Source of the DNA: Gillisia sp. Hel1_33_143
GTDB taxonomy: Bacteria; Bacteroidota; Bacteroidia; Flavobacteriales; Flavobacteriaceae
Reading direction: 5' to 3'
Assembly (NCBI RefSeq): GCF_900104765.1
Contig: NZ_LT629737.1
Span: 3,162,001-3,226,000 of the forward strand
DNA length: 64,000 nucleotides
A program made the translations under genes and the position numbers. Shown here piece after piece: positions 5,282 to 37,151 of this stretch; within the stretch, counting starts at the first letter, position 1, and each line of letters opens with the position of its first letter. The notes beneath the pieces were generated by a model. It was not told where the DNA came from and ran no database searches. It was given only the letters and a program-made list of their open reading frames with translations.

Positions 5282-5284
5282 ATA

Positions 5285-8200
5285 TTATGTTGCTATTATT
5301 TTAAAATAAAAGGTACTTCCAACTCCAAATTGAGAATCTACCCAGATAGTACCCTCATGCAATTGTACGATCTTTTCTACATGAGCTAGACCTACTCCTG
5401 TTCCTTCATATTTCTCTTCTGTTCTTACTCTATTGAAAATGGTGAAAATGTTCTTAAGATCTTCTTCCTTCATTCCTATACCATTATCCATCACGGCGAA
5501 TACCCAATATTTACCATCTGGATACGCAGAAATTCTAATCTCTGGATTTCTTTCTTTATTTCTATATTTAAGCGCGTTGCTTAATAAATTTTGAAATAAA
5601 AGTCTAAGTTCTACCTCATAGGCTTCTATTTTTGGAAGAGCACCTACATGAATCTGAGCTTTACTTTCTCGAATACTCTTACCAAGATCATATTTTACAA
5701 TCTCTACCAGTTCTTTTGTATCTACTGTGGTTTTCTTGGTATCTCTACCAATTCTAGAATGTTCTAATAAAGCTTTGATCTGATTTGCCAATCTATCTGA
5801 AGCTTCATCTATATAAGAGATATACTCTTTACCTTTAGCATCCAATTTGTCTGCATAGATCTTTCCTAAAATATCACTACCAAATTTTATGGTAGCCAAT
5901 GGCTCTTGTAAATCATGTGAACAGATTGAAACAAACTGTTCCAGATCTTTATTAGCTCTTTCCAGATCTGCCTTCTGGTCTTTTAATTCAGATTGAACTT
6001 CTTTTAGTTTAGAGATATCTACACAAGTAAACCTGTTGGTAATAATGGTACCTTCTTCATCAAATTCTGCAGTAGAATTCAGGATTATTGGAATAAGTTT
6101 ACCTGTACTGGTAACCATTTCCTGCTCGATATTCTTTAATTCACCGGTTTCGTTAAAAACTTTGTTCAGTCTTAAAGCTTTTAATTGCGCCTCATCAGCA
6201 TAAAGTTCAAAGATGGGTTTCCCTATAATTTCTTCTTTAGAGGTATATTCAAGTTTAGTTACTGCCTCGTCATTACATTGCACAATTAAAGCGGTATTAG
6301 GATCTACGCTAAAATGCATTACCGGATCATCCTCATAAAAAGATTTAAATCTTTTCTCACTGGCAATCAAGTTATTCTTAGCTTTCTGAAGACTTTCTAT
6401 ATCTATAAAAGTTATAACAACCCCGTCTGCTTCTTGTTGTGAATTTTTAAATACAGAAATACGTTGCAGATAATTCCTTCCTTCTTTAGAGATAATATGT
6501 TTCTCCAACGATCTTCCAGTCTTTAATACCTTCTTACACCTTGCTACCAAACCTCTACCTCTATTTGTTCCAAAAGATGTGGTAAAATTCTCAATGGGCC
6601 TTCCTATATCTGCACCTATAAGACTGAAATGTTTTTTAATGGCAGGAGTAAATTTTCTGATCCTTAAACCAGAATCTAAGAAAATAGTACCTATATCTGT
6701 ACTCTCTAATAAATTGATCATATCAGAATTTAAGGCTGCAAGATCATCCATCTTCTGAACGTTCTCTGCATTCACGGTGTTGATCTCTTCATTTACACTT
6801 TGAAGCTCTTCATTAGTACTTTGCAACTCTTCATTACTTGCCAATAATTCTTCATTAGCTGCTTGAAGTTCTTCGTTACTAGTTTCAATTTCTTCTAAAG
6901 AGATCTGTAATTCATCTTTAGTCTTTTTTAATTCTAGCTCTAGATCTTCAATATACTGCTTAGTACGACTATTTATTGTAACTTTTTCTACCTCTTGAAC
7001 ATTATTAAAATTCAATTCTTTCTCCACAAAGGTGATGGCAAAATTAGTTTCGTTATCTAGATATTCATTTTTAAATGGTTTAACAATTAGATCCAGACTT
7101 TTGGTTTCGCTATTATGTTGATAAACTGCATCCCTATAAAATACCTTAGAATTGTCTCTAGCAGCACTCTTAACGCTAGATTGCACAATATGTTTGAGAT
7201 CTTGAGATAACATATCTAAGAGGTTAATAGAAAACCCATTAACGGGTAAATTGGCATATTTTCTAAAAGCACCTATTCCCTGAAGAATATTATACTCAGA
7301 ATCTACATATACACTTGCTCCTCCAAACTGTTCTAAAATAGCCTGATTAAGATCTTCTATGAATTTAGATGAATTACTACTAGCTGTATTCACTTCTCTA
7401 ACTTTACTCCTTGAGATCCTTGCTTTAGGAGTAGTGCCTCTACTTGTTGAAGAATGCAATGTTTCTGCTCTTAAACTGCGCTTGGGATTAACATTTTTGA
7501 AAATTTTCCACTTTCTACTAATGTCTTCAAAGAATTCTCGATGCGTATTTACAGTTTCTGAAGTACCCATAACAAGATAACCGTCTTCTTTTAAACCGTA
7601 GTGAAGAACATTTAAAGCCTTAAGCTGAATAGAGGGCTGAAAATAGATAAGTAGGTTACGGCATAAAACCATATCCATATTGCTAAAAGGCGGATTCTTT
7701 ATAATATTATGCTTTGAAAAGATAACCATTCTGCGTAAGCGCTCTACTACATGATATCCATCTGCTTTACAAACAAAATATTTATTTAGAAGAAACGTAT
7801 CTATATCTGCAACAATACTTTCAGAATAAATTCCATTACTTCCAATATCCAAATGCTGCTGAGAAATGTCTGTAGCAAAGATCTTTACTTCAAATTTCTT
7901 ATCCTGCCGCTCCATTTCTTCATTAATGTACATTGCTAGAGAATATGGCTCTTCTCCTGTACTGCAGGCAACATCCCAAATCTTTAAGGTTGCACCCGGC
8001 TCTACGCTTCTCACCATTTCAGGGATAACCTCATCTTCTAGTATCTCCCAAACCTGACTGTCTCTAAAAAATTTAGTAACGCCAATAAGAAATTCTCTAT
8101 ATAATATAGGAGTTTCGTCTGGATTTGCTTGCAAATAAGAAAAATAATCTTCTAAAGATGAGCATTTACAAACACTTACTCTTCTTGCTACTCTACGTGC

Positions 8201-23041: not shown

Positions 23042-23085
23042 ATGATTTTTATCATTTTTATGGATAGCTTCCTTCTCTATATTTG
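23042..23085 (+). promoter_or_regulatory. Class II Crp/Fnr-type promoter of mlaEFD-usp
   Basis: Operator ATGAT-TTTT-ATCAT at 23042-23055 (perfect palindrome arms); perfect -7 box TATATTTG at 23078-23085. The operator centre is 29.5 bp upstream of the first base of the -7 box, placing it near -41.5. There is no TTTG -33 box, as expected of an activator-dependent promoter. Same layout at six other promoters in the island. Confidence 0.75.
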
Positions 23086-23102
23086 ACTCTAATAGCAATG
23101 CT

Positions 23103-23879
23103 ATGGTGTCATCTTCTGCAATTCTTACTAACTTAAAATCCTTCTTTGTAGAAATTGGAGATCTATCTGCATTTGCTGGAAGATACTTTAAAGAAGTTTT
23201 TACGGCACCCTTCGAATTTAAAGAACTCTTGAAGCAATGTTACAACATGGGCAATAGATCTTTACTATTGGTAAGCGTAACAGGGTTTATTTTAGGTTTG
23301 GTATTTACCCTTCAATCCAGACCTACACTTCAGGAATTTGGTGCTGTAGCTTGGATGCCTTCTATGATTAGCATCTCTATAGTAAGGGAAATAGGGCCTG
23401 TAATTATTGCGCTTATTTGTGCAGGAAGAATTGGTTCTGGTATTGGTGCAGAATTGGGTTCTATGAAAGTTACAGAACAGATAGATGCCATGGAAGTTTC
23501 TGGTACCAATCCTTTTAAGTATTTAGTGGTAACAAGAATATTAGCCACCACGCTAATGTTACCGCTACTCATATTTGTAGGAGATTTTATTGCGCTTATT
23601 GGGTCTGCCATTATAGAGAATATTAAAGGAGATGTCTCCTTTCTATTATATTTCAATCAGGTTTTTGATGCTCTTAAATTTAGTGATGTGCTACCGGCAA
23701 CCGTAAAATCATACTTTTTTGGATTTGCCATTGGTTTGGTAGGTTGCTTTAAAGGCTACAACAGTAAAAAAGGTACCGCCGGTGTGGGCCGGGCTTCTAA
23801 TTCTGCTGTAGTATTCACTTCTATGTTATTATTTATTATTGATTTTATAGCAGTATTTATTTCAGATATTTTTTATTGA
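23103..23879 (+). CDS. mlaE: MlaE-family ABC transporter permease
   Basis: 258 aa with five hydrophobic segments. Family signatures: SIVREIGPVIIALICAGRIGSGIGAELGSMKVTEQIDAMEVSG, the conserved cytoplasmic coupling region of MlaE/TrgD1 permeases. Known role: inner-membrane core of the Mla lipid transporter, moving phospholipids between inner and outer membrane with MlaF and MlaD. It is followed 7 bp later by the ATPase and then the MCE protein, the usual order. The ATG at 23103 gives a very short leader behind the predicted promoter; an Mla start a few codons downstream cannot be excluded. Confidence 0.93.
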   Translation: MVSSSAILTNLKSFFVEIGDLSAFAGRYFKEVFTAPFEFKELLKQCYNMGNRSLLLVSVTGFILGLVFTLQSRPTLQEFGAVAWMPSMISISIVREIGPVIIALICAGRIGSGIGAELGSMKVTEQIDAMEVSGTNPFKYLVVTRILATTLMLPLLIFVGDFIALIGSAIIENIKGDVSFLLYFNQVFDALKFSDVLPATVKSYFFGFAIGLVGCFKGYNSKKGTAGVGRASNSAVVFTSMLLFIIDFIAVFISDIFY

Positions 23880-23886
23880 TCATCTT

Positions 23887-24639
23887 ATGAAATCAACTCT
23901 ATTTGATACAACAAAACCGGTACTGGAAATCAAGGATCTTCATAAGAGCTTTGGCACCCTAGAAGTATTAAAAGGGTTCAATCTGAAGTTATACGAAGGA
24001 GAAAATTTAGTATTAATGGGGAAATCTGGAGCTGGAAAGTCTGTTCTTATTAAATGCATGGTAGGACTCTTAGATCCAGATAAAGGAAGTGTTGAGATTC
24101 TAGGAAAGAATATAGCCGGGTTAAGTAGAAAGGAAATGGATATTCTTAGAACAAGTATCGGATTTCTTTTTCAAGGAAGCGCACTCTATGATTCTATGAC
24201 GGTTAGGGAAAATCTTGAATTTCCATTGAGAAGACATACAAGACCTAATGATCTTGATGATACAGACCAGCTGGTTCTAGAAGCATTAACCAATGTAGGA
24301 TTAGAAAATGTAATAGATCTAATGCCGGAAGAATTATCTGGAGGAATGCAAAGAAGAATTGCCCTGGCAAGAGCACTCATCTTAAAGCCGAAGATCATTT
24401 TATATGATGAACCTACTACAGGTTTAGATCCTATAACATCTAAGGAGATCATAGAACTTATGAGCAACATTCAGAAAAAATATAAGACCTCCTCTCTTAT
24501 AATTACGCATGATGTAGATTGTGCCAGAGTGATCTCCAACAGAATGATCTTGATCTTAGATGGGATTAATTATGTGGAAGGCACATTTAATGAATTACAG
24601 CAAAGTAAAGATCCAAAAGTGAAAGCATTTTTTAAATAG
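23887..24639 (+). CDS. mlaF: MlaF-family ABC transporter ATPase
   Basis: 250 aa. Walker A GKSGAGKS (residues 45-52), Q-loop LFQGSALYDSMTVRENLEFPL, ABC signature LSGGMQRR, Walker B IILYDEPTTGLDP, and H-loop His in IITHDVDCA are all intact. The GSALYDSMTVREN segment is typical of MlaF. Cytoplasmic; energises lipid transport by the MlaE permease. Second gene of the operon. Confidence 0.95.
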   Translation: MKSTLFDTTKPVLEIKDLHKSFGTLEVLKGFNLKLYEGENLVLMGKSGAGKSVLIKCMVGLLDPDKGSVEILGKNIAGLSRKEMDILRTSIGFLFQGSALYDSMTVRENLEFPLRRHTRPNDLDDTDQLVLEALTNVGLENVIDLMPEELSGGMQRRIALARALILKPKIILYDEPTTGLDPITSKEIIELMSNIQKKYKTSSLIITHDVDCARVISNRMILILDGINYVEGTFNELQQSKDPKVKAFFK

Positions 24640-24645
24640 AGTATT

Positions 24646-25641
24646 ATGGAAAAAGGTGAAAACAAGAATCTGCTCCTGGGAGTATTTGTAACCGTTGCAA
24701 TACTCATCTTTGTTTTGGCGATCTATTTTATAGGAAGCAGACAAAATATGTTTGGAAACACCAGTGATGTCTCTTCGATATTTAAAAATGTAAACGGACT
24801 GCAAATTGGTAACAATGTTAGATTTAGCGGAGTGAATGTTGGAACTGTTAAAGGAATTACCATTCTTAATGACACTAGCATATGTGTTGATATGAAGGTG
24901 GATAATAGCGCTATGAAACTTATTAGATCTAATGCACAGGCTACTATAAGTTCTGATGGTTTGGTAGGGAGTATGATTGTAAATATTGTACCTGTAGATA
25001 ATTATATCAACGAACCCTTAAGAAATGGAGATACCATAGCCTCCATAAGTAAGATAGCAACGGCAGATATGCTAACTACACTAAATACTACCAATGAGAA
25101 TGCAGCTTTACTTACTGCAGATCTGTTGAAGATCTCGAACGCTATTAATAATGGAGAAGGAACTATTGGTGCTTTGCTTAAAAGTGAAGAACTGGCAGAA
25201 AATTTTGAGAACAGTATCTCAAATTTTGAGCAAGCAGGTAAGCTAGCACTACGAACTATATCAAATTTAAATGCTACTATCTCAAAGTTTGATATGGATA
25301 ACAGTGCTGCAGGAAAGATCTTTAATGACACCATTACAGCTGGAAAAATAGATTCTATTATGCAGAATATAGAAACCTCATCTGTTCAAATAAAACAGAT
25401 CTCTATGCATCTTAATGCTTTTTCAAATAAATTGAATTCAGAAGAAGGTGCTTTTAATAGCATTCTTACAGATACAATTATTGCTTCTAATGTTGAACAA
25501 ACACTGAAAAATGTAGAATCGGCATCAGAAAAATTTGATGAAAATATGGAAGCTCTAAAACATAATTTTTTATTTAAAGGATATTTCAAAAAATTAGAAA
25601 GAAAAAAAGCAAGAGCGCTTAAAAAGAATGAAAGCGAATAA
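24646..25641 (+). CDS. mlaD: MlaD-type MCE-domain lipid-binding protein
   Basis: 331 aa. One N-terminal membrane anchor (about residues 9-29, LLLGVFVTVAILIFVLAIYF) and an MCE domain at about 35-115 (NVNGLQIGNNVRFSGVNVGTVKGI). The C-terminal 200 residues are helical and rich in N, S, I and L with heptad character. This is much longer than E. coli MlaD (183 aa), but such tails are common in Bacteroidota. Known role: hexameric periplasmic ring through which lipid passes. Follows mlaF by 6 bp. Confidence 0.92.
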   Translation: MEKGENKNLLLGVFVTVAILIFVLAIYFIGSRQNMFGNTSDVSSIFKNVNGLQIGNNVRFSGVNVGTVKGITILNDTSICVDMKVDNSAMKLIRSNAQATISSDGLVGSMIVNIVPVDNYINEPLRNGDTIASISKIATADMLTTLNTTNENAALLTADLLKISNAINNGEGTIGALLKSEELAENFENSISNFEQAGKLALRTISNLNATISKFDMDNSAAGKIFNDTITAGKIDSIMQNIETSSVQIKQISMHLNAFSNKLNSEEGAFNSILTDTIIASNVEQTLKNVESASEKFDENMEALKHNFLFKGYFKKLERKKARALKKNESE

Positions 25642-25668
25642 TAGAAAACTTAAAATAAAAGCTAAATT

Positions 25669-26499
25669 ATGAATAAAATAGTATGTGCTACAGATTTTAC
25701 TCGCAACTCTATTGCAGCATTACAATATGCCTTTAAGATGAGTAACTTGCTTAAAAAGGAACTAATAGTACTTAATATTTGCAATCCCGAAGAAGATGAT
25801 GAGTATCATTCTGCATCAGACAATCAGGCTATTCTAGATACGAGAGTACAACTGTTACAAGAGTATTGTAGCATTCATTTAAAAGCAAATTTCGATTCTC
25901 TACAGATCCGGGCAATTATCAAAAAGGGCAAAAATATACCAAAGAAGATCTGCAATTTCATTAAAGATCTGGATATAGCATTTTTAATAATGGGAACTCA
26001 CGGTAATAGTCCGTTTAAAGCTAAAAATTTTGGAAGCATAACCAATGCAATGATAGCTGCTTCTACTTTTCCTATACTGGCCATCCCTCCTACTTTTGAG
26101 TTCATTAATCTGGAGACCATCGTTTATACCAGCGATTTTGAAGAAGATGACATTTATAACCTAAATCAAATTGTAAAGATCTTTGCGCCTTTAAAAATTA
26201 GTATTGTTATCTTACATATCTATGCCTATGAAGAATATCTAACAAAAGAGCGGCTTATAGGATTTCAAACTTTACTGGCGGAAAAAGTGGCTTTAGATAA
26301 TTTTGAATTTAAGCTAATATTTTCTGAGAACATTCTTAAAACCTTAAATGAATATCTTCTTACCACGAACACCGATATGGTTGCTATGATGGAACGGAAG
26401 AACAAATCTGAATTTAATGCAGGTTCTCACCAAGATCTTGTAAAGAAAATGGATAATATAACCAGTATTCCATTACTTAGTTTCAATACAGTTTATTAA
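25669..26499 (+). CDS. Tandem universal stress protein (UspA family)
   Basis: 276 aa, two Usp folds. The first starts MNKIVCATDFTRNSIAALQYA and carries the ATP-binding loop G-2x-G-9x-G-S (GTHGNSPFKAKNFGSI, about residues 105-120); the second half (from about 150) lacks that loop. It lies 27 bp behind mlaD and no promoter is visible in the gap, so it is probably the fourth gene of the mla operon. Known family role: ATP- or AMP-binding stress and persistence factors. More divergent than the four tandem usp genes at 31-35 kb. Confidence 0.88.
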   Translation: MNKIVCATDFTRNSIAALQYAFKMSNLLKKELIVLNICNPEEDDEYHSASDNQAILDTRVQLLQEYCSIHLKANFDSLQIRAIIKKGKNIPKKICNFIKDLDIAFLIMGTHGNSPFKAKNFGSITNAMIAASTFPILAIPPTFEFINLETIVYTSDFEEDDIYNLNQIVKIFAPLKISIVILHIYAYEEYLTKERLIGFQTLLAEKVALDNFEFKLIFSENILKTLNEYLLTTNTDMVAMMERKNKSEFNAGSHQDLVKKMDNITSIPLLSFNTVY

Positions 26500-26600
26500 A
26501 AATAGAGTAGCAAGCCAGATTGATTAAAAAGTAAACATAAACTCCTTATTATTATATTTTTAATCTCTCCTCAGAATTATAAATACAAGGTGGCTAATAG

Positions 26601-26810
26601 TTATTTTAGATGTGATTGCTTATAGCGAAATAGAAGTTGCTTTAAATTTTCTAGATATTCAGTAAAGATCTTTTCCGTCATTTCTGGATGCTCAAAGGTT
26701 GGTAAAGTTACTTCCTGTTCTTCTAAAAATCTATAAATACTAGGATAGGAAGTTTCCAACTCCAGGGTGAGACCGGTTATTTCTGCAATGAGTTTATCTA
26801 ATTTTGCCAT
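26601..26810 (-). CDS. Small helical protein of 69 aa, function unknown
   Basis: MAKLDKLIAEITGLTLELETSYPSIYRFLEE..., followed by an acidic and hydrophobic mix ending in a basic tail (KQSHLK). No signal peptide, no domain I recognise; predicted mostly helical. It has its own operator/promoter of the island type (26835-26878), which is the strongest evidence that the gene is real and belongs with the stress genes. The start ATG at 26808-26810 fits a leader of about 20 nt. Confidence 0.65.
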   Translation of the reverse strand: MAKLDKLIAEITGLTLELETSYPSIYRFLEEQEVTLPTFEHPEMTEKIFTEYLENLKQLLFRYKQSHLK

Positions 26811-26834
26811 AATAATTAAATTTAATTTCTCTTT

Positions 26835-26878
26835 TAAAGTTAATTATTTAATAGACCTCCGCTTATGATATTTATCAT
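26835..26878 (-). promoter_or_regulatory. Class II Crp/Fnr-type promoter of the 69-aa gene
   Basis: Operator ATGAT-ATTT-ATCAT (26865-26878 on the plus strand) and minus-strand -7 box TAACTTTA (26842 to 26835). The operator centre lies 29.5 bp upstream of the first base of the box. It is located in the gap just behind the P-type ATPase stop codon. Confidence 0.72.
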
Positions 26879-26889
26879 TCTATGACCAA

Positions 26890-29397
26890 TTATCCGGAAT
26901 GATTTCTTCTGATTATCCATTTATAAATCTCGAACCAGAAAACAATAACAAACGCTGTGATAAATAGAATTAATAACTGAGATAAATTAAGAGCCGTTAC
27001 TTCGAAAAGATTGGCTACCCAAGGTTGATATAATATAATTGCAAGAAGCATAAAACTTAAAATTACAATGCCGCCAATGAGTTTGTTCTTATAACGTAAG
27101 GTGGTGAAAATAGAATGGTAGAATGATCTATTAACCAGCGTTAAAAATATATTAGAAACTATTAATGTACTAAAAACCATAGCTCTTGTGGCTTCTTCAG
27201 AATAAAGATTTCTAATAGCGAACTGGTATATAAACAAACATCCTATTGTTATCACTAAACCTTGAATGACGCTAACCGTGAGATCTCTCCACCGCAAAAA
27301 TGTATCTTTCATTTTTCGAGGTGCACGCGTCATACTAAACTTCTCCAAAGGTTCATTTTCATAGATTATAGAACAAGTGGGGCCCATTATAAGTTCAAGA
27401 AATATTACATGTATAGGAGTAAAAATAACCGGATAGATCCATCCAAGAACTACGGGCAATGCCACTGTTAAAATTATAGGTATATGAATTGAAATAATGT
27501 ACTGAATTGCTTTTTTCAGGTTTACATAGATCTTTCTTCCCATGGCTACAGCATCTACCATTTTACTAAAATCATCATCAGAGAGAATAAGTGATGATGA
27601 TTCTTTAGCAATATCAGAACCTCTTTTTCCCATGGCAATACCAATATGAGCTGCCTTTAAAGCCAACGCATCATTCACTCCATCACCCGTCATCCCCACA
27701 ATTTCATCTTGTGCTTTTAAGGTATTGATGATCTTTAATTTTACTTACGGAAATATTCTGGTAAAAATATTAGTATCTCTTACTTTTTGTTCAAACTCTT
27801 CAGAAGAAAGCTTCATTAATTCTTCTCCTGTTATCGCGGTATGCTCATTTTTAAAATTTACGATCTTGGCAATAGCAGCTGTCGTGATCTCATTATCTCC
27901 GGTTAGAATTTTAATCTTTATACCAGCTGCATAAAGTTTTTGCAGCGTCTCGGCAATGTTCTTTTTTGGCGGATCATAAAATCCAAGAATGCCTATAAAT
28001 TTAAACCTGAATTCCTGCTGAGTTTTTGGAAATTCATCTCCATTAAAATCTGCTGCACCTACCCCTAATATCCTTAAACCTTCTAAGGCTAATTGCGCCG
28101 CGATACTTTCTACATTGCTTTTTTCTTCCTTAGTGAGAATTGAATGTTCTAGTACAGCTTCTAAAGAACCCTTCATGGCAATTTTTCTAGATCCCTGTTC
28201 ATTCTGAAAAATATGTGTCATCATTGGTGGCTTTCCCCCCAATGGATATTCATGGATCATTTTATAATCTGGACGTTCATCAACTTCTGCTAATGTTTCA
28301 TAGAAATGATGAAGTGATTTCTCCATGGCATCAAAAGGAACACTCTCACTCGCCCACATTGCAGTTTCAATGAGGTTAAATGCTTCCTCAGAATTCCAAT
28401 TTTGGTCACTGCTCGTCTTTGAATTTAAGTGTGTATAGATCTTGGTAAGTTCCATGCGGTTCTCTGTAATTGTACCTGTTTTGTCTGTGCAAAGAACAGT
28501 TACAGAACCCAGTGTTTCAATAGTTTGAGTTTGCTTTACTACAATTCCCAATTTCATCAATCTATAGGCACCTAACGCCATAAAAGTAGCAAAAGCAACA
28601 GGGATTTCTTCCGGCAATACAGACATAGCAATAGTTAATCCCTTCAGCAAACTATCTAATAGATCTCCTGAAGCTTTAAAACTGATACCCCAGATAATGA
28701 GAAAGATACCAATACCTATAATAGCCATTTTTTTAACAAAACGGGAAATCTGTTCTTGAAGCGGAGATTTAACCTTTTTGATTTTACCTAAGGAAGTATC
28801 GATCTCTCCTAATTTAGTATTTGCACCAACCTGTTTGGTTTTAAAAACACATTGCCCGGAAACTACTGCTGTACCCTTAAATACCAGATTTTTTTCAGGA
28901 TCTTCCAGCTCTTTATAAATACTAAAGGCTTCTCCCGTTAAAATAGATTCATTTACGGTAAAATCATTTAGCTGAAGTAATTCTCCATCTGCAGTTATCA
29001 ACTCTCCTTCTGAAGCTACCACCAGATCATCAATTACGATTTCATCAGATCGTATCTCAACGAGCTCATTATTTCTTATAACGGTACTAAGGGTTTGGGT
29101 ATACTCTTTTAAAGCATCGAGAGCCTTCTTACTTCTAGCGCTTTGATAAAAGGAGATGGTAGAGATCAAAACGATGGCGCATAACAAGAATATGCCTTCA
29201 TTATAACTGCCTAAAATAAAGTAAATACTAGCAGTGGCTAACAAGATAAGAAACATCGGCTCCAGAAATATATCTTTGAACACGTTTAATAACCTGCTTC
29301 CCTTAACCTTATTTATAGAATTACTACCATGCAATTTTCTAGAACGCAAGACTTCCTCATCATTTAATCCTTCAAAATTATACGGATTTTCGCTCAT
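26890..29397 (-). pseudogene. Cation-transporting P-type ATPase interrupted by one in-frame TAA
   Basis: One continuous frame of 836 codons, broken only by TAA at codon 551 (27745-27747). Upstream part: actuator motif TGEA, PEEIPVAF in the fourth membrane segment, phosphorylation motif CTDKTGT, KGSLE, and TGDN. Downstream part continues VKLKIINTLKAQDEIVGMTGDGVNDALALK, the hinge motif, then membrane segments 5-10 (HVIFLELIMGPTCSI). At the broken site relatives read F-A/T-R-x-x-P-E-x-K, so a single G to T change (GAA to TAA) explains it. Length and domains are otherwise full. The fragment downstream has only a GTG start inside the hinge motif and could not work alone. PEEIP-type enzymes transport divalent cations or protons; the ion is unknown. 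It is either a recent null mutation, a polymorphism, readthrough, or a base-call error. Confidence 0.85.
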
Positions 29398-29436
29398 AGC
29401 TTTAATTTATTCTGATAAAGGAATTTGAAAATGAAA

Positions 29437-29700
29437 TTAGATAAAATCCATCTTCCATCTTTTAAGGCTTGGTAATAAATGAATTATATGCTGGGCTTCT
29501 TCCATGGAAAGCTCATTATGGATCTTGGCCATATCATTCAATCTAACTTCCATGGTATGAATACTTAAAGAACTATCTGTAAATTCACCATTTTGGAAAC
29601 AGTGAATGCAATATTCTCCATTTATAGATTGATCCCTATTAGTTCCTTTATTCTCCTCTAGTAAAACAAAGCCACAACTCTGGCACAATGGATGCTCCAT
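29437..29700 (-). CDS. Small zinc-ribbon protein
   Basis: 87 aa. Two Cys pairs, CQSC (6-9) and CIHC (about 32-35), with GTNRDQSINGEYCIHCFQNGEFT matching the putative zinc-ribbon family Zn_ribbon_2 (CQSCGMP...GTN...YCxxCYQNGxF). The C-terminal 40 residues are helical. Function of the family is unknown; it may bind nucleic acid or sense metal. It lies 39 bp upstream of the P-type ATPase gene in the same direction and shares its operator-bearing promoter at 29779-29822. Confidence 0.8.
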   Translation of the reverse strand: MEHPLCQSCGFVLLEENKGTNRDQSINGEYCIHCFQNGEFTDSSLSIHTMEVRLNDMAKIHNELSMEEAQHIIHLLPSLKRWKMDFI

Positions 29701-30007
29701 ATTATTTATAATTATACATGAATATAGATACCAAGATACGCGAAACTCTCATGCACTATCAATCTAATCCACTTGCTATAAAGTTAAACAACATTGTAAG
29801 ATTTGATTATGATAATTATCAGCTTTCCCTAAAAACATTATGATATTAAAATTGGGTGTAACACAAATAATGATTATTTTAAATACCTGTAATTCAAAAA
29901 CTTAAATAGTAAGTGAATTTAAATTACCTTTTTTAAAGATCTCTTTAGCTAAAGCTTAGCTCATCGCTAAACACTTAAAACGTTCTCCCCAAATAAATTC
30001 TACAAGT
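29701..30007. other. Divergent intergenic region upstream of the zinc ribbon gene and the Crp-type regulator
   Basis: 307 bp. It contains the island-type promoter for the leftward zinc ribbon/ATPase unit (29779-29822). On the regulator side I see a small dyad GTGT-A-ACAC (29856-29864) and a run of AGCT-containing near-palindromes at 29946-29962, but no clear -33/-7 pair. The operator has no -7 box at the right distance on the plus strand, so it does not obviously control the regulator gene. Confidence 0.5.
29779..29822 (-). promoter_or_regulatory. Class II Crp/Fnr-type promoter of the zinc ribbon/P-type ATPase unit
   Basis: Operator ATGAT-AATT-ATCAG (29809-29822; core TGATAATTATCA is a perfect palindrome) and minus-strand -7 box TAACTTTA (29786 to 29779), identical to the box of the 69-aa gene. 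Centre-to-box distance is again 29.5 bp. The leader to the ATG at 29700 is longer than at the other units (about 75 nt). Confidence 0.7.
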
Positions 30008-31063
30008 ATGAGGGGTAACATAAAGATATTACTGATAGCTGATTCTATACAATTAAGGAGTAGCACTCAAAAAATCCTAACAGATTCCGATTGCGAGGTG
30101 CTCATTGCTGAAAGTAGCAGCGATGCCATTCTCGAATTAAAACTTTCAAAACCCGATCTTCTGTTTTGGGGTATTTCCATGCGTAATTCTAATTCTTATA
30201 GTGCATATTTAGCATTACAAAAAGATTTTGGAGCTCACATCCCAATAATAATAATCACTTCTTTGTTGGATCTTAATGCTCCGGGAATAATAGAGAACTC
30301 CTTAAACGAAAATTATATAACCTACCCATTTTCAGCAAAAGCATTATTAGACAAGATAAATAACACTCTTTCTAAAGTTAAATCTGCTAAGCTCACAGTA
30401 CCCACTAATAATTTTAAAAGCAGAAAATTAAGATCCATAACATCGCTCAAAGACTTGTTATATTATTTTAGAACTGAAGCAGAAGAAATTGATATTATTA
30501 AGAACAAACCTGTATATAAAGAGCAAAAACATGCCAACTATGTCTATTTAGTGGAAAGTGGATTGGTAAAGATCCACAGAATGGATGAATATGGTAAACA
30601 ATTAATAACAGGGCTTTACAAACCAAATGAGTTCTTTGGATTTTACTCATTTAAAGAAATATCCTCCTACCCAGAAACTGCCACGTGTTTAACAACTTCC
30701 AAACTTCTACGGATCTCTAACTCAAAATTTCAGGAGCTACTATCACAAAGTTCTAATCTTAGCTTAGAACTAGCACAATTATTATCCGACAAGCTTTCTC
30801 AATTAAAAAATCATCTACTCGAAATGGCCTATGGATCTGTTCTTAAAAAAACATCTAATACTATTTTACAGTTTGCAGAAAATATTGAAAATAAACCTCA
30901 TCAATCTATAAAGATCTGCAGAAATGATCTCGCCAACGTAGCAGGAATTTCAACAGAAAGCTTAATTAGAAGTTTATCGTTCCTAAAAAAAGAACGATTA
31001 ATAGATATTAATGGAAGAGATATCAAGATCTTAAATTACCATAAGCTACAGCTTGTTAGGTAA
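30008..31063 (+). CDS. Crp/Fnr-family regulator with a degenerate receiver domain
   Basis: 351 aa. Residues 5-122 have the receiver fold (KILLIADS, IPIIIITS) but the phosphoacceptor position reads LLFWGISM, Gly in place of Asp, and the conserved Lys is Tyr (YITYPF), so it cannot be phosphorylated in the normal way. Residues about 145-260 are a cyclic-nucleotide-binding-like beta roll; about 280-350 is a Crp-type winged helix (RNDLANVAGISTESLIRSL). The recognition helix keeps the Glu-x3-Arg pair that in Crp and Fnr reads the TGA half-site. It has no Fnr-like N-terminal cysteine cluster. Located in the centre of a 15-kb island with seven matching operators, it is the likely activator. Signal unknown. 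Confidence 0.9.
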   Translation: MRGNIKILLIADSIQLRSSTQKILTDSDCEVLIAESSSDAILELKLSKPDLLFWGISMRNSNSYSAYLALQKDFGAHIPIIIITSLLDLNAPGIIENSLNENYITYPFSAKALLDKINNTLSKVKSAKLTVPTNNFKSRKLRSITSLKDLLYYFRTEAEEIDIIKNKPVYKEQKHANYVYLVESGLVKIHRMDEYGKQLITGLYKPNEFFGFYSFKEISSYPETATCLTTSKLLRISNSKFQELLSQSSNLSLELAQLLSDKLSQLKNHLLEMAYGSVLKKTSNTILQFAENIENKPHQSIKICRNDLANVAGISTESLIRSLSFLKKERLIDINGRDIKILNYHKLQLVR

Positions 31064-31166
31064 TACTATATCATTCTTTTGGTGGATAAAAGTATTCTCT
31101 TTAAATCATGTTGATGCATAAAAGATTCGCACACAATTATTTACTTAGTTCTTAGTGGAGCCTAAA

Positions 31167-31210
31167 CTGATATTCATCATAGTTTGATAGGCTAATAGCT
31201 CTTACTTTTA
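31167..31210 (+). promoter_or_regulatory. Class II Crp/Fnr-type promoter of the first tandem usp gene
   Basis: Operator CTGAT-ATTC-ATCAT (31167-31180) preceded by AA; -7 box TACTTTTA (31203-31210). Operator centre 29.5 bp before the box; predicted start near 31215, 14 nt before the ATG. Confidence 0.72.
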
Positions 31211-31228
31211 AGGTTCAATTACTTTATT

Positions 31229-32083
31229 ATGAGAAAGATATTATTGCCTACCGACTTTTCTGCAAATGCTTTCAATGCCTTAAAATATGCTGTTTCGCTA
31301 TTTAAGTATGAAAAAAGCGAATTTTATCTGCTTCACGCTTATGCAGATGAAGTTTATAGTAATGAGGCTGCACTTACTGAAGATCAATTCCAAGAAAAAA
31401 AGGCGAACGCTAAGAAAAATTCAAAATCTCAGCTAAAAGAGATCCTTGCAGCTATCAAGGAATTATCTCCTAATCCTAAGCATCAATTTTTCATAAAATC
31501 ATCGTACGGTTTGCTGGTAGATAAAGCAAATGACCTTATAAATATAGAGAACATAGATGTTGCCGTAATGGGCACCCGAGGAAAGACCAATGAGAAATCT
31601 CTTACCTATGGCACCAATACCATTCAGGTTATGAAATATGTGCAATGCCCCGTGCTTTGCATCCCAGAAAATTACGTGTATAAAACACCTAAGCAAATTC
31701 TCTTTCCAACCAATTTTCTAATTCCATATCAGCGCAGAGAATTAAAGTTAGTAGCAGACATGGCAAGATCTTACAGGTCTGAAATTCATATGCTTTACAT
31801 TTCTAAATTCCCCATTAACTCATATCGTCAGAAAGACAATCAATCTTTTCTGAAAGAGCAATTTAAAGATGATGTATTCAATTTTCATAGAGCAGGTGAA
31901 GGAGATAAAACAGAGGTTATATTAAAACACTTAGATTTTATGAATATAGATCTTCTGGTAATGGTAAGATCAAGACATACCTATCTAGAAAACATCATTC
32001 AAGCTTCTACAATAGATAAGATCGGACTTCAACCTCAAATTCCATTTTTAGTTCTTCAAAATTATCATAGAGAGATAATGTAA
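31229..32083 (+). CDS. Tandem universal stress protein
   Basis: 284 aa, two Usp folds. N-terminal fold starts MRKILLPTDFSANAFNALKYA and holds the nucleotide loop GTRGKTNEKSLTYGTN (G-2x-G-9x-G-T). The C-terminal fold lacks the loop and ends with the shared tail R/N-x-RHTYLENI...GLQPQIPFLVLQ. First of four tandem paralogues between 31.2 and 34.8 kb. It has its own operator and is separated from the next usp by another operator, so it is a single-gene unit. Confidence 0.92.
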   Translation: MRKILLPTDFSANAFNALKYAVSLFKYEKSEFYLLHAYADEVYSNEAALTEDQFQEKKANAKKNSKSQLKEILAAIKELSPNPKHQFFIKSSYGLLVDKANDLINIENIDVAVMGTRGKTNEKSLTYGTNTIQVMKYVQCPVLCIPENYVYKTPKQILFPTNFLIPYQRRELKLVADMARSYRSEIHMLYISKFPINSYRQKDNQSFLKEQFKDDVFNFHRAGEGDKTEVILKHLDFMNIDLLVMVRSRHTYLENIIQASTIDKIGLQPQIPFLVLQNYHREIM

Positions 32084-32095
32084 AAATCTGGTAAA

Positions 32096-32139
32096 CTGAC
32101 AATTGTCATACTATTTCATGCAGATTGTCTTTAGCTTTA
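32096..32139 (+). promoter_or_regulatory. Class II Crp/Fnr-type promoter of the usp2-usp3 unit
   Basis: Operator CTGAC-AATT-GTCAT (32096-32109; core TGACAATTGTCA is a perfect palindrome), in the context TAAACTGAC; -7 box TAGCTTTA (32132-32139). Centre-to-box distance 29.5 bp. The predicted start near 32144 lies after the upstream GTG at 32141, which supports the ATG at 32162 as the true start of the gene. Confidence 0.72.
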
Positions 32140-32161
32140 AGTGGTGCTAAATTCCATACTA

Positions 32162-33013
32162 ATGAAAAAAATTCTTCTTCCAACAGATTTTTCTGAAAAC
32201 GCTTATAACGCTATAGATTATGCAATAAATCTCTTTAAAAATGTAGAATGCACCTTCTATCTTCTAAATACCTATACACCTGTTTTATATGATACAGAAT
32301 ATATTTTATACAGTCCCAGCCAGATAAGTTTGGATGAAATTTACAAAATAAACTCAGAAAGTGGATTAACCAGAGTAGAAAAGCGAATTAGAGCAGATTA
32401 TAACAATCCAAAACATACTATTAAAAAGATAGCTGCTTTTAATATTCTTACAGATGAAATAAAGGAACAGGTAGCAGATAAGAATATAGATCTTGTAGTT
32501 ATGGGAACTAAAGGTGCTACGGGAGCTGCTCAAATTTTATTCGGGTCTAATACAGTACATGTTATAAAAAGGTCTCCTTGTCTATTATTAGCAATTCCTT
32601 CTCAGTTCAAATTTAAACCTGTTCACAGCATATTATTTCCAACAGATTTTGAGATAGATTACAGCATATTGCCTTTTAAATTTCTAGATCTACTTTCAGA
32701 CAATTACCAATCTCAATTGAATATTTTACATGTCATCTTTGGAACAGGCATGGAGCAAGATCAGGAACGAGGTAAAAATCAATTGATAGAAAAAATTGAT
32801 CACTATGCTCATAAATTTTATACGGTCAATAATAAAAGCGTACCACAGGCTATCTATGATTTTCAAAATGAAAATGAAACAGATCTCCTGTTAATGATCA
32901 ATAATCATCACTCTTTTTTCGAAAATTTACTCTTTAGACCTGTTATTAATGAAATTGGTTTTCATGTTAAAACACCCTTCCTAATTATACCTGCAAATGA
33001 ACATAAACATTAG
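32162..33013 (+). CDS. Tandem universal stress protein
   Basis: 283 aa from the ATG at 32162 (MKKILLPTDFSENAYNAIDYA). The frame is open to a GTG at 32141, but all paralogues start at M-K/R-K-I-L-L-P-T-D-F-S and the predicted transcript begins after that GTG, so the ATG is preferred. ATP loop GTKGATGAAQILFGSN is intact in the first Usp fold; the second fold ends with NNHHSFFENLLFRPVINEIG. Cotranscribed with the next usp (5 bp gap). Confidence 0.9.
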   Translation: MKKILLPTDFSENAYNAIDYAINLFKNVECTFYLLNTYTPVLYDTEYILYSPSQISLDEIYKINSESGLTRVEKRIRADYNNPKHTIKKIAAFNILTDEIKEQVADKNIDLVVMGTKGATGAAQILFGSNTVHVIKRSPCLLLAIPSQFKFKPVHSILFPTDFEIDYSILPFKFLDLLSDNYQSQLNILHVIFGTGMEQDQERGKNQLIEKIDHYAHKFYTVNNKSVPQAIYDFQNENETDLLLMINNHHSFFENLLFRPVINEIGFHVKTPFLIIPANEHKH

Positions 33014-33018
33014 AAATC

Positions 33019-33864
33019 ATGAAAAACATTCTCCTTCCTACAGATTTTTCTGAAAATGCATGGAATGCTATCATTTACGCCATCACACTTTATAAAGATG
33101 AGGCTTGTAATTTCTATTTTCTACACGCTTATGATGTAAACGATTATCATGATTCTAGCAAGCTTACTCCCATTCCGGCCAAAGAAGCACTTAAAAAAGC
33201 CTTAGATCTTGCCAATCATGACTTGCAGCGATTAATGGAGATCTTGAAGATCACTTACCACAATCCTTTACACGTTTTCCATAGCCTTGCAGAGAACAAA
33301 AGTCTTATTGCTGCCATATCTTCTGAAATTAATTCTAAAGAATACGAATGTATAGTAATTGGAACTCAAGGTAGTACGGGCGCATATCAAACGCTTTATG
33401 GAAGTAATACCATAGCAATAATGGAGCAAATTAAGAACTGTCCCATACTAGCTATACCCTCTCATGTTGCTTTTTCAGGTTTAAGCGAAATTGTTCTGGT
33501 AAATGGCTATAAAAACTCACAGAAAAAAAATGATCTTAAATATCTAATAAAACTAGCTAATGAGACCAATGCTTCTATACGTATGTTATATATAGACGAA
33601 GGCAGTGGGTTGAGTGAAAATCAGAAGAAAAATAAAAGTTTATTAGATGCCCATCTGGAAAATGTTCCACACAGTTTTCATTCTCTGGCACATGTAAGCG
33701 TACCTGTAGGTATTTATTGCTTTACAGAAAGTAGAGGTAGTGATATGATTGCATTCATTAATAAGAAGCATAGTTTTTTTGAAAACCTACTCTTTACGCA
33801 TTTATATAGAGATGTTGGAAAATATGCTTTGATACCTGTTTTGGTACTTCACAAAAAATCATAA
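33019..33864 (+). CDS. Tandem universal stress protein
   Basis: 281 aa. Starts MKNILLPTDFSENAWNAIIYA; ATP loop GTQGSTGAYQTLYGSN; C-terminal signature NKKHSFFENLLFTHLYRDVG. Closest in the array to the preceding and following copies, which suggests local duplication. Second gene of a two-gene unit, with no promoter of its own visible in the 5-bp gap. Confidence 0.92.
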   Translation: MKNILLPTDFSENAWNAIIYAITLYKDEACNFYFLHAYDVNDYHDSSKLTPIPAKEALKKALDLANHDLQRLMEILKITYHNPLHVFHSLAENKSLIAAISSEINSKEYECIVIGTQGSTGAYQTLYGSNTIAIMEQIKNCPILAIPSHVAFSGLSEIVLVNGYKNSQKKNDLKYLIKLANETNASIRMLYIDEGSGLSENQKKNKSLLDAHLENVPHSFHSLAHVSVPVGIYCFTESRGSDMIAFINKKHSFFENLLFTHLYRDVGKYALIPVLVLHKKS

Positions 33865-33884
33865 CAGTAAGCTTATAGCTTAAA

Positions 33885-33928
33885 CTGACACTGGTCATTT
33901 TTTATAGCTGTCAAGGTCAGTAGTTTTA
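33885..33928 (+). promoter_or_regulatory. Class II Crp/Fnr-type promoter of the usp4-nuclease-MBL unit
   Basis: Operator CTGAC-ACTG-GTCAT (33885-33898) in the context TAAACTGAC, the same flank as at 32092; -7 box TAGTTTTA (33921-33928). Centre-to-box distance 29.5 bp. Predicted start near 33933, 15 nt before the ATG. Confidence 0.72.
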
Positions 33929-33947
33929 TAACTTAATTCAAATTAAG

Positions 33948-34802
33948 ATGAAAAAGAAAATACTTATACCAACAGATTTCTCCAGAACCGCATGGAATGC
34001 TTTAATATATGCTACAGACTTATTTAAAGATGATAAATGTACCTTCTATATTTTGAATGCTTTCCAGCTTTATCATTTAACTACAGATAGTATTTTACCC
34101 CCACAGCCAGGACATAAGGCATATGAGCAAGCTAGAGAAAATTCAGAAAAAGGCCTAGAGCAACTAATGGATGCGATAACTATAAGATCAGATAATGATA
34201 ATCATAAATTTGAAATGATATCTACCTATAACAGCGTTTTTGAAGCTGTTAGAACCACCGTAGAGAATAAGAAAATAGATCTCTTGATGATGGGAACGCT
34301 AGGAGAAAATTCATCAGACAAATTCTTATACGGTAGTAATTCTGTAGATGTAATGGAAAAATTAAGAGATTGCCCGGTAATAGTGGTTCCTCAAACCATT
34401 CAACTTAAAGAACATTCCAGAAAAGAAGTAGTATTTGCTACCAATTTCAAATCTTCTGTAGCATCTCATGAACTTAATGAATTGCTAGAGGTAGCTTCAA
34501 AATTAAAAGCTGCTATTAGAGTATTACATATTCAGAAGAAAGATAATCTAAGCAAAGAACAAGAGAAAAATAAAAAAGAACTTCAAGAATATTTAAAAGA
34601 TGTAGTGCATACTTTCCACACTTTAACAGACATTCCACTGGTTACCGGAATACATTCTTTCATAGAAAGTAGAAATTCTGATATGCTAGCGCTAATCAAT
34701 AAAAAACAAGGTTTTCTAGCCTCTATTTTTTCTAAAACTTTAGTGCATGAAATTGGCTTTAAGCCACATGTACCTCTATTGGTAATGCATCACAAAAAAT
34801 AA
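33948..34802 (+). CDS. Tandem universal stress protein
   Basis: 284 aa. Starts MKKKILIPTDFSRTAWNALIYA; nucleotide loop GTLGENSSDKFLYGSN; C-terminal signature NKKQGFLASIFSKTLVHEIG. Last of the four tandem copies. It leads an apparent three-gene unit with the ATP-cone/nuclease gene (54 bp gap) and the beta-CASP gene (5 bp gap). Confidence 0.92.
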   Translation: MKKKILIPTDFSRTAWNALIYATDLFKDDKCTFYILNAFQLYHLTTDSILPPQPGHKAYEQARENSEKGLEQLMDAITIRSDNDNHKFEMISTYNSVFEAVRTTVENKKIDLLMMGTLGENSSDKFLYGSNSVDVMEKLRDCPVIVVPQTIQLKEHSRKEVVFATNFKSSVASHELNELLEVASKLKAAIRVLHIQKKDNLSKEQEKNKKELQEYLKDVVHTFHTLTDIPLVTGIHSFIESRNSDMLALINKKQGFLASIFSKTLVHEIGFKPHVPLLVMHHKK

Positions 34803-34856
34803 GAATAGATTTTTAATAATCTCAAAACTTCAATTTAGTAAAGCGAAAAAAATTAA

Positions 34857-35714
34857 ATGGATCTCTCTAAGTTACATATTATAAAAGCATCAGGAGAAAG
34901 CGTTCTTTTTTCTGCAGATAGTGTTGCGCACTCTTTAAAGCATGCCGGTGCTGGTGATTTGATTATAAAAGAGATCCTAGATACTTTAAAGCTAGAAATG
35001 TATGAAGGTATTTCAACTAAAGAAATATATAATCGGGCCTTTAAATTACTTAAAGCTAAGAGCAATTGCCTTGCTTCAAAATATAAACTAAAAAAAGCGA
35101 TATATGAACTTGGTCCAACAGGTTTCCCGTTTGAAAAGTTTATAGCTGCACTATTTAAAAATTTGGGTTATGAAGTTACTGTGGGCAAGGTGTTACCAGG
35201 ATTATGCGTAAAGCATGAAATAGATGTTATAGCCACTAAAGGCAAGGAGACCTTATTTATGGAATGTAAATTTCATGGAGACCAGGGTAGAAATTGTGAT
35301 GTAAAGATCCCTATGTATGTAGATTCCAGATTTCGAGATCTTCAGAATCATAATGAGCAAAAATCATCCACTAACAAACATGAATTCACTCAAGGCTGGG
35401 TAGTTACCAATACTAGGTTTACAGCAGATGCCTTGGCTTATGGAAAATGTTCAAATATTAAATTATTGAGCTGGGACACTCCCAAAGGAAACGGAATAAA
35501 AGATAGAATAGACCATACCGGACTTTATCCTATTACAGTTTCTAATTTGCTTACTAAAAGAGAAAAACAATTTTTATTAAGTAGAGATGTAGTACTCTGC
35601 AAAGAGCTAATTAACGATAAATTCTATCTAGACCATCTTGGTATTTCGAGCTTGCGCAAGCAAAAAATAGTACTAGAGATGAAAGAATTATGTCTAGGTT
35701 CTATTAAAAACTAA
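34857..35714 (+). CDS. ATP-cone plus PD-(D/E)xK nuclease-like fusion protein
   Basis: 285 aa. Residues 1-90 are an ATP-cone (IIKASGESVLFSADSVAHSLKHAGA, IYNRAFKLLK), the nucleotide-sensing module of ribonucleotide reductases and NrdR. Residues 95-215 are a restriction-endonuclease-like core: Glu near 97 (PFEKFIAALF), Asp123 (HEIDVIAT), Glu136 and Lys138 (MECKFH), that is the D-x12-ExK pattern of Mrr-type enzymes. Known of the modules: ATP-cones bind ATP/dATP, Mrr-type folds cut DNA. No methylase or specificity gene is nearby, so classic restriction is unlikely; a nucleotide-gated nuclease is inferred. Cotranscribed with usp4 and the MBL gene. Confidence 0.82.
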   Translation: MDLSKLHIIKASGESVLFSADSVAHSLKHAGAGDLIIKEILDTLKLEMYEGISTKEIYNRAFKLLKAKSNCLASKYKLKKAIYELGPTGFPFEKFIAALFKNLGYEVTVGKVLPGLCVKHEIDVIATKGKETLFMECKFHGDQGRNCDVKIPMYVDSRFRDLQNHNEQKSSTNKHEFTQGWVVTNTRFTADALAYGKCSNIKLLSWDTPKGNGIKDRIDHTGLYPITVSNLLTKREKQFLLSRDVVLCKELINDKFYLDHLGISSLRKQKIVLEMKELCLGSIKN

Positions 35715-35719
35715 AATGT

Positions 35720-37090
35720 ATGGATGCTGTAAAAGTTCATTTTCTAGGTGCCTCCCAAACTGTCACCGGTTCTAAATATCTTTTGGAAACTCCAGAGTTA
35801 AACATTCTTATAGACTGCGGTATGTTTCAGGGGTTGAAAGAGCTTAGGTTATTAAATTGGGAAAAATTTCCTTTCCCTCCAGAAAAAATAGATCTCATAT
35901 TACTCACCCATGGCCATCTAGATCATACCGGATATTTACCTAAACTATGGCAACAAGGCTTTACAGGGGCTATAATTGGCTCTGCACCAACGTTAGAAAT
36001 TGCCTCCATCATTCTTAGAGACAGTGCAAAGATACAAGAGGAAGATGCAGCAAGAGCTAATGAAAATGGAACGAGTATTCACGATCCTGCTAAGCCTTTC
36101 TATACCATAAAAGATGCAGAAGCTACCATTAAATTATTTCAGCAAGCTAATATGGAAACATGGATGGTACTAAATAGCCAGATCAAAGTTCGATTTAAAA
36201 AGAACGGCCATATTTTGGGAGCTACTTTTATAGAACTAAAAATTAGCGAGAAGGTATTCCTATTCTCCGGAGATATAGGTAGAGTAAAAGATAGATTATT
36301 AGAGGCTCCAGAGAAACCAGACTGGGCAGACTTTTTATTTTTAGAGAGTACTTATGGAAATAGACTTCATGCTGAAGAAGATGTGGAGGCTAAATTAATA
36401 CAATGTATAAAAGAAGTTCTAGTAAATAAAGGGAACCTTATCGTCCCTAGTTTTGCAGTAGAAAGATTACAAACCCTTATGTATATTCTATGGAAACTTT
36501 TTGAGCAAAATAAAATTCCTAATATTCCCATATGTATTGATAGCCCTATGGCCAACAAGGTTTTTTGCGTATTTGAACAATACACTTCATGGCACAAAAT
36601 CTCTTTAGAAGAATTAGAGCACATGAAGCAGCATTTTAACATTATTACCTCCTATAAGGATACTTGGAAAACCGTGGATGATACTCGCTCAAAGATTATA
36701 ATTGCAGGGAGTGGTATGGTCTCGGGCGGTAGAGTGCTCACTTATTTAAAATACCTTATCTCTAAACCGGAAACCATTGTGGTCTTAGTGGGATACCAAG
36801 CTGAAGGAACTAGAGGAAGAACTTTAAAAGAAGGTGGGAAAGAGATAAAGATCTATGGGAAATATTATGAAGTAAATGCAAAGATTGAAAATATAGAGAG
36901 TTTGTCTGCTCATGCAGATCAGGCGGAGATATTAGATTGGGTAAGTGATATCAAGAATATTCCTGAAAGAACCTTTTTGATTCATGGAGAACGCATTGCC
37001 TTAGACGCTTTAAGGCTTAAAATAAAGGATACGCTACAATGGAAAGTGTACATTCCCCATCTATATGAAGTTGTTGAATTATCTGTCTAA
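35720..37090 (+). CDS. Metallo-beta-lactamase/beta-CASP family hydrolase (CPSF73-like)
   Basis: 456 aa. Metal motif HGHLDH at 64-69 (LLTHGHLDHTGYLPKLW), HILGATF and FSGDIGR as later metal sites, a beta-CASP insert (ESTYGNR, SPMANKVF, IIAGSGMVSGGRVLTYL) and the C-terminal SAHADQ and HGE motifs. Bacterial members of this group act as RNA endonucleases/exonucleases; the substrate here is inferred. It starts 5 bp after the ATP-cone gene, tying a probable DNA-type nuclease and an RNA-type nuclease to the same stress promoter. Confidence 0.9.
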   Translation: MDAVKVHFLGASQTVTGSKYLLETPELNILIDCGMFQGLKELRLLNWEKFPFPPEKIDLILLTHGHLDHTGYLPKLWQQGFTGAIIGSAPTLEIASIILRDSAKIQEEDAARANENGTSIHDPAKPFYTIKDAEATIKLFQQANMETWMVLNSQIKVRFKKNGHILGATFIELKISEKVFLFSGDIGRVKDRLLEAPEKPDWADFLFLESTYGNRLHAEEDVEAKLIQCIKEVLVNKGNLIVPSFAVERLQTLMYILWKLFEQNKIPNIPICIDSPMANKVFCVFEQYTSWHKISLEELEHMKQHFNIITSYKDTWKTVDDTRSKIIIAGSGMVSGGRVLTYLKYLISKPETIVVLVGYQAEGTRGRTLKEGGKEIKIYGKYYEVNAKIENIESLSAHADQAEILDWVSDIKNIPERTFLIHGERIALDALRLKIKDTLQWKVYIPHLYEVVELSV

Positions 37091-37107
37091 AAAGGAAACT
37101 CGAAGTA

Positions 37108-37151
37108 CTGATATTTATCAGTAAGTAAGGAAAAGTAAAGTGGTACCTTGG
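37108..37151 (+). promoter_or_regulatory. Class II Crp/Fnr-type promoter of the three small helical genes
   Basis: Operator CTGAT-ATTT-ATCAG inside the long palindrome TACTGATATTTATCAGTA (37106-37123); -7 box TACCTTGG (37144-37151), one mismatch. Centre-to-box distance 29.5 bp. The predicted start near 37156 falls after the GTG at 37140, so that GTG cannot be the start of the following gene. Confidence 0.7.

Follow-up and report, generated by a model that had tools for sequence, protein, structure and literature searches.

Seven fixed-spacing operators in Gillisia sp. Hel1_33_143 point to a conserved, probably microaerobic class II Crp/Fnr regulon

We analyzed a 64,000-nucleotide stretch of Gillisia sp. 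Hel1_33_143 (contig NZ_LT629737.1, positions 3,162,001 to 3,226,000; hereafter the window), in which seven intergenic gaps hold the palindrome TGAY-N4-RTCA at one fixed distance upstream of a -7 box. Judged by their sequence, these sites belong to a genuine class II Crp/Fnr regulon that is conserved in relatives and probably microaerobic. The explanation that we favor, and consider likely, is that they serve as operators through which an activator of the Crp/Fnr family controls a conserved regulon, and that they lie on ordinary Bacteroidota promoters.

A palindrome at one distance from the -7 box

We searched for TGAYN4RTCA-N23-TANNTTTR, a 43-mer made up of a 12-bp operator, a 23-bp gap, and an 8-bp -7 box. 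It occurs exactly six times in the window (23043+, 26877-, 29821-, 31168+, 32097+, and 33886+), and a seventh site, 37109+, departs from it by a single mismatch in the -7 box (TACCTTGG). A preliminary description of this DNA had reported seven palindromes in seven gaps, two of them on the minus strand (26877- and 29821-), each with its center 29.5 bp before the first base of the -7 box. All are present, on those strands and at that distance (7/7), the start positions given earlier being the base that precedes each 12-mer. The sites and the genes that they precede are as follows:

23043..23085, plus strand: site 1; operator TGATTTTTATCA (23043-23054), N23, -7 box TATATTTG (23078-23085); before the MlaE gene at 23103, which is followed by ABC ATPase, MlaD, and Usp genes
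26835..26877, minus strand: site 2; operator TGATAAATATCA (26866-26877), -7 box TAACTTTA (26835-26842); before a 69-aa open reading frame (ORF) at 26601-26810
29779..29821, minus strand: site 3; operator TGATAATTATCA (29810-29821), -7 box TAACTTTA (29779-29786); before a zinc-ribbon gene (29437-29700), then pieces of a P-type ATPase gene
31168..31210, plus strand: site 4; operator TGATATTCATCA (31168-31179), -7 box TACTTTTA (31203-31210); before a Usp gene (Usp2, 31229-32083)
32097..32139, plus strand: site 5; operator TGACAATTGTCA (32097-32108), -7 box TAGCTTTA (32132-32139); before a Usp gene (Usp3) whose Usp domain begins at 32162, the listed GTG at 32141 being too near the -7 box
33886..33928, plus strand: site 6; operator TGACACTGGTCA (33886-33897), -7 box TAGTTTTA (33921-33928); before a Usp gene at 33948, which is followed by genes for an Mrr-like nuclease and a beta-CASP RNase
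37109..37151, plus strand: site 7; operator TGATATTTATCA (37109-37120), variant -7 box TACCTTGG (37144-37151); before an ORF that has no Pfam match (ATG in frame at 37173, end at 37595)

The preliminary description had named a comparison with shuffled sequence, a genome-wide search upstream of genes, and a comparison with related genomes among its checks, and these bore the pattern out. Against its six occurrences in the window, the exact 43-mer never appeared when the window was shuffled 100 times with dinucleotide counts preserved (mean, 0.00). Enrichment of the palindrome alone was rejected (8 in the window versus 4.57 expected, a number attained by 8 of 100 shuffles), and the 43-mer with up to two mismatches was not significant in the window either (14 versus 8.68, attained by 7 of 100), so that the exact spacing is what carries the evidence. 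An eighth palindrome, at 25797-25808 inside the Usp gene 25669-26499, has no -7 box at a gap of 23 and is probably a chance occurrence.

Genome-wide, the exact pattern occurs at 13 sites, versus 1 for a reversed-pattern control, and 12 of the 13 precede a gene start; with one mismatch allowed the background is high (41 versus 17). When the gap between the palindrome and TANNTTTR was varied from 8 to 38 across the genome, 23 bp accounted for 13 of 35 pairs, while the 30 other gaps averaged 0.73 with a maximum of 2. A wider scan (gaps of 5 to 59) covered 49 loci, mostly picked for holding the pattern: the window, 20 loci of the same genome, 27 of relatives, and one of Salinimicrobium. Here a gap of 23 was found in 81 distinct sequences and every other gap in at most 3.

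Class II activation predicts a fixed spacing and a poor -33 element, whereas repressors tolerate many positions. The flavobacterial TAnnTTTG box is reported to span -12 to -5 (PMC9723704), which would put the operator center at -41.5; if the -7 box occupies those positions in this species too, all seven palindromes are centered there. The single preferred gap in the genome, the conservation in relatives, and the linkage to a regulator clade described below support the class II Crp/Fnr geometry with an operator near -41.5 that had been proposed. The further statement that no site has a -33 TTTG is right for -33 itself, but site 4 carries TTTG at -32 to -29. Among 67 sites of the same genus, T reaches 0.97 at -35 and 0.67-0.75 at -33 to -31, and because of these T-rich positions a degenerate -33 region may remain. 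In the 21 sites of a genome from the same family (G018), the bias at -33 to -31 was not seen, and T was frequent only at -35 (0.76). The base preceding TGA in the 67 sites is mostly C or A (C 0.52, A 0.37, T 0.04), and the base following TCA is T (0.97).

Target genes and conservation in relatives

Six of the exact sites are in the window and the other seven are beyond it. That the seven sites described earlier belong to a regulon is supported by the preferred gap, the conservation, and the clade linkage, but the regulon extends further than had been described. One outside site precedes a 76-aa ORF, which we take to be CcoS, and the ccoNO gene of a cbb3 oxidase; another precedes hemN (CcoNO and HemN both score above their NCBIfam cut-offs). 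Others stand ahead of genes for a 93-aa product and a truncated haemoglobin of group III, a further Usp gene, a 143-aa protein without a Pfam match, and, with a 183-base leader, a protein whose matches to MBL and rhodanese are below cut-off. Sites with one mismatch include those of a Usp gene adjoining a regulator gene at 456 kb and of a dehydrogenase-like gene, and a 152-aa gene is among those near long-leader or one-mismatch sites. The targets are often low-oxygen and stress genes: cbb3 oxidase, HemN, truncated haemoglobin, and Usp. In Flavobacterium psychrophilum, oxygen limitation is reported to raise cbb3 and haem-synthesis genes (PMC9723704).

The pattern is conserved well beyond this genome. 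In 15 genomes of the same genus we counted 215 exact sites versus 6 reversed controls, with at least one site in each, and in a phylum-wide sample 193 of 395 genomes had a match. Sites were present in 41/41 genomes of family f1 (597 versus 26 controls), 8/8 of family f5 (48 versus 2), and 43/49 of the rest of the class (220 versus 20). In family f32 they were present in 11/86 (12 versus 1, counted by eye).

Conservation of the individual target promoters is partial. Orthologues of the site-4 gene Usp2 scoring above 290 bits had a site with the 23-bp gap in 8/8 cases, including Salinimicrobium, whose locus was obtained by similarity of the regulator protein and not by the pattern. Such sites also preceded 4 of 7 MlaE matches in relatives (one of the three misses is truncated at the locus end) and 5 of 8 matches to the site-6 Usp gene. 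They were absent from all 7 matches to the zinc-ribbon gene and from the eight best orthologues of Usp3, which counts against sites 3 and 5, respectively. Operon-internal genes had no such site in relatives (MlaF 0/8, MlaD 0/7, Mrr 0/4, beta-CASP 0/4), which, like the 8/8 for Usp2, speaks for the activator regulon. In one relative (G002, locus L085), two sites about 2 kb apart, at 2388 and 4354, have an identical operator and an identical 8-base upstream flank, and they are perhaps a local duplication.

Two runs of genes in the window stand behind these sites:

23103..26499, plus strand: genes for the MlaE permease, an ABC ATPase, MlaD, and a Usp protein, downstream of site 1
31229..37090, plus strand: four Usp genes, Mrr-like nuclease, and beta-CASP RNase behind sites 4-6

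The Mrr-like nuclease and beta-CASP RNase genes, at 34857-37090 behind the site-6 Usp gene, both have orthologues in the Salinimicrobium locus (L034). Site 2 was considered as an ATPase promoter and rejected, as it abuts the end of the P-type ATPase gene and faces the 69-aa ORF. That cation-transporting ATPase gene (26890-29397) is itself split into ORFs 27745-29397 and 26890-27699 by a single in-frame TAA (27745-27747). It is a single frame of 834-855 aa in three relatives and is in two pieces in a fourth (L101).

Candidate regulators and the signal

The window encodes one candidate reader of the sites, a receiver-Crp fusion:

30008..31063, plus strand: receiver (residues 7-117), cNMP-binding fold (165-247), and Crp-type helix-turn-helix (298-348)

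Its Pfam matches place it in the Crp/Fnr family (PF00027, 1.7e-15; PF13545, 5.4e-9). It departs from a working response regulator in that the phospho-acceptor Asp is replaced by Gly and the conserved Lys by Tyr. In the same genome, the receiver of a paralogue (G000:C1:455997-457034, at 456 kb) is intact, and the paralogue adjoins a FixL-like PAS kinase. Both receiver residues are kept in 27 of 29 aligned fusions, the exceptions being the window copy and one from relative G004. The window protein had been proposed as the binder, and it is a plausible one; given its degenerate receiver, the lack of a kinase gene directly upstream, and the intact paralogue, the main binder may be another protein.

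A tree built from 68 Crp-type proteins placed the 29 fusions together on one side of a branch with support of 100/99; proteins matching via receivers alone, one L025 protein, and a 441-aa L097 protein were omitted. Scanning genome contigs with the window protein returned two loci, that of Salinimicrobium (40% identity) and a weak Rhizobiaceae match (23%), the latter entering the tree only as a long branch. The clade to which the fusions belong also has plain members, which carry no receiver. A recognition helix E-x-x-I-R was invariant in all 24 aligned clade rows (15 plain and 9 fusion, the fusion rows trimmed to begin in the linker after the receiver). Fourteen of the 15 plain rows have CxxC plus two further cysteines; the first two and the last of these align with FNR cysteines and the third does not. 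The nine fusion rows lack this set, one of them keeping a single Cys at the last position, and the window fusion has none of the four cluster-binding cysteines of FNR at the aligned positions. A literature search at the level of titles and abstract openings returned no description of this regulon or of receiver-Crp fusions in Bacteroidota.

Clade members tend to lie near the sites. Linkage was assessed in 26 of the 30 genomes of the class with sites listed (G431, G384, G200, and G216 had no listed regulator), with 10 of 17 sites included for G164 and 10 of 15 for G428. Among the matches listed, 15 of 33 clade regulators, fused and plain, were within 10 kb of a site versus 0.83 expected, a value that assumes uniformly placed sites and disregards contig ends; in some genomes the clade members are at least those listed. 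A search with the 24-member clade alignment at E <=1e-40, scoring seven or fewer first-look candidates per genome, found matches in 142 of 395 genomes: 41/41 in f1, 8/8 in f5, 45/49 in the rest of the class, and 0/86 in f32. The readers are probably members of the Crp/Fnr clade that includes the receiver-Crp fusions. The fusions as sole readers were rejected, since G018, which gave no close fusion match, has 21 sites.

The kinase next to the 456-kb fusion bears on the signal. The best match of its PAS domain was FixL (1d06, E 2.1e-17), followed by DosP (3.5e-12), and a His and an Arg of the domain align with those of FixL chains; we take the His to be the haem ligand and the Arg to act in oxygen signaling, as in FixL. 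It scored below the cut-off of the NCBIfam FixL model (103.5 of 850 bits). We predict that it is FixL-like, binding haem and showing oxygen-controlled activity. Related kinase genes lie directly upstream (within 200 bases) of 21 of the 29 fusions; the seven fusions of the window's subclade all lack one, and an eighth case (L039) begins at a contig edge. Among the 12 PAS segments listed from these 21 kinases, 10 keep the His and a GHGR motif, one is LOV-like, and one is different. One fusion in relative G009 (L086, about 5230-7100, minus strand) adjoins a 624-aa kinase with a LOV-like NCRFLQ motif, suggesting that regulators of this kind also receive light or redox signals. Taken together, the kinase and the targets point to oxygen as the probable signal.

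Weighing the readings

These data suggest a model in which a dimeric regulator would bind TGAY-N4-RTCA at -41.5, over a promoter with a -7 box and a weak -33 element, and would activate it through class II contacts. The readers in this genome would be the two receiver-Crp fusions. Given the intact receiver and the neighboring FixL-like PAS kinase at 456 kb, low oxygen would act via the kinase, leading to phosphorylation of the receiver of the 456-kb fusion and then to operator binding. The window fusion may act without phosphorylation or modulate its paralogue. The output would be a low-oxygen and stress program comprising cbb3 oxidase, HemN, truncated haemoglobin, and Usp proteins.

Several observations weigh against this model. 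Most genus loci in the orthologue comparison were picked for holding the pattern, and in the Salinimicrobium locus only one of four palindromes has a -7 box at the 23-bp gap. Pooled over gaps 8-38, the genome-wide scan yielded 35 pairs versus 22 for the reversed control, and for one exact site of the 13, at 632633, no gene start is within reach. The window fusion no longer has a phospho-acceptor, and no kinase gene lies immediately ahead of it. The presence of the clade is sometimes at odds with the number of sites: in family f39, exact sites are missing from five of the nine genomes that have a strong clade match, within the class G110, G267, G388, and G408 have a clade match and no site, and G079 and G176 have three sites each and no clade match. 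G018, with its 21 sites and no close fusion match, is a further case. A Pfam scan of the genes behind 7 of the 21 found cytochrome bd subunit I, cytochrome c proteins, ferredoxin oxidoreductases, and an AlaDH/PNT protein, and at E 1e-6 no G018 target was similar to any reference target from the window genome, so the content of the regulon differs there. The f39 and G018 results lower our confidence in the model.

These discrepancies between clade and sites would also fit real operators read by another Crp-like protein, with the fusions acting elsewhere. The genome holds three further Crp-type genes matching PF13545, encoding proteins of 189 aa (G000:C1:2932761), 210 aa, and 239 aa. The helix of the 189-aa protein, TPETISR, is FNR-like, which makes this protein a possible reader and weighs against the fusions in that role. 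The helices of the 210-aa and 239-aa proteins (SRVVISR and TRAVVNR) have no Glu, however, and the linkage, as assessed for fused and plain members of the clade, favors that clade; we regard this alternative as unlikely. We consider it quite improbable that the regulator instead represses, blocking a weak promoter from -41.5 until a signal releases it. Activation and repression are not distinguishable from sequence alone, but a single spacing combined with a poor -33 element agrees with the class II expectation given above, and the 23-bp gap alone stands out over gaps 8-38. Several targets are Usp paralogues whose promoters possibly descend from one, and the palindrome by itself is near chance level. 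Yet chance, or common ancestry of duplicated Usp promoters, would hardly explain the unrelated targets (MlaE, HemN, cbb3 oxidase, haemoglobin, zinc ribbon), the differences between sites in N4 and most of N23, the seven exact sites outside the window, the gap spectrum, or the occurrence in distant genomes, and we give it almost no credence.

A different input (light, redox, nitric oxide, or carbon), the low-oxygen genes then belonging to a wider response to stress, is compatible with activation from these sites, and we take it as a serious, if less probable, prospect. It would suit the many Usp targets and the G009 fusion, whose neighboring kinase has the LOV-like NCRFLQ motif. MalR-like, carbon-sensing Crp/Fnr homologues are predicted in a Flavobacteriales genome (PMC8510549). 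Against it stand the His and Arg aligned with those of FixL, with the roles that we assume for them; both are kept in 10 of the 12 PAS segments listed.

The proposed activator regulon resembles known systems in part. It shares with class II Crp/Fnr activation a palindromic operator centered at -41.5 (if the -7 box is at -12 to -5) and a weak upstream core element, but the core promoter is the Bacteroidota TAnnTTTG box rather than a sigma-70 -10 element. The FNR/Anr regulon likewise includes cbb3 oxidase, HemN, and Usp, the TGAT...ATCA core is shared, and the helix-turn-helix is related; here, however, C or A usually precedes TGA instead of the T of TTGAT, and the fusions lack the FNR cysteine set. 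With the rhizobial FixL-FixJ-FixK cascade the system has in common a FixL-like PAS kinase, a Crp/Fnr-type output, and cbb3 among the targets. Unlike in that cascade, receiver and Crp-type activator are one protein, which would drop the FixJ-to-FixK transcription step. The plain Crp/Fnr proteins of other Bacteroidota (closest solved structure, 2gau) share the E-x-x-I-R helix and are also linked to sites; they differ from the fusions in having no receiver and in the cysteines, present in 14 of 15 plain rows and absent as a set from the nine fusion rows.

We tentatively propose, as an idea that falls somewhat short of an even chance, that Bacteroidota keep one operator set under interchangeable sensors with a common recognition helix, these being, depending on the lineage, either cysteine-rich FNR-like Crp proteins or fusions driven by separate kinases (haem-PAS and one LOV-like case). 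The species studied here would then use fusions only, with the receiver-dead copy working independently of phosphorylation as an antagonist or a constitutive co-activator. The present data offer a concrete operator, a spacing, and candidate regulators for apparent low-oxygen control in Bacteroidota, on the unusual TAnnTTTG promoter. If the model is true, the signal passes from a FixL-like kinase to a Crp-type activator by a single phosphotransfer, a shorter route than that of rhizobia, and the family would provide a natural test of how an operator set persists while its sensor is swapped.

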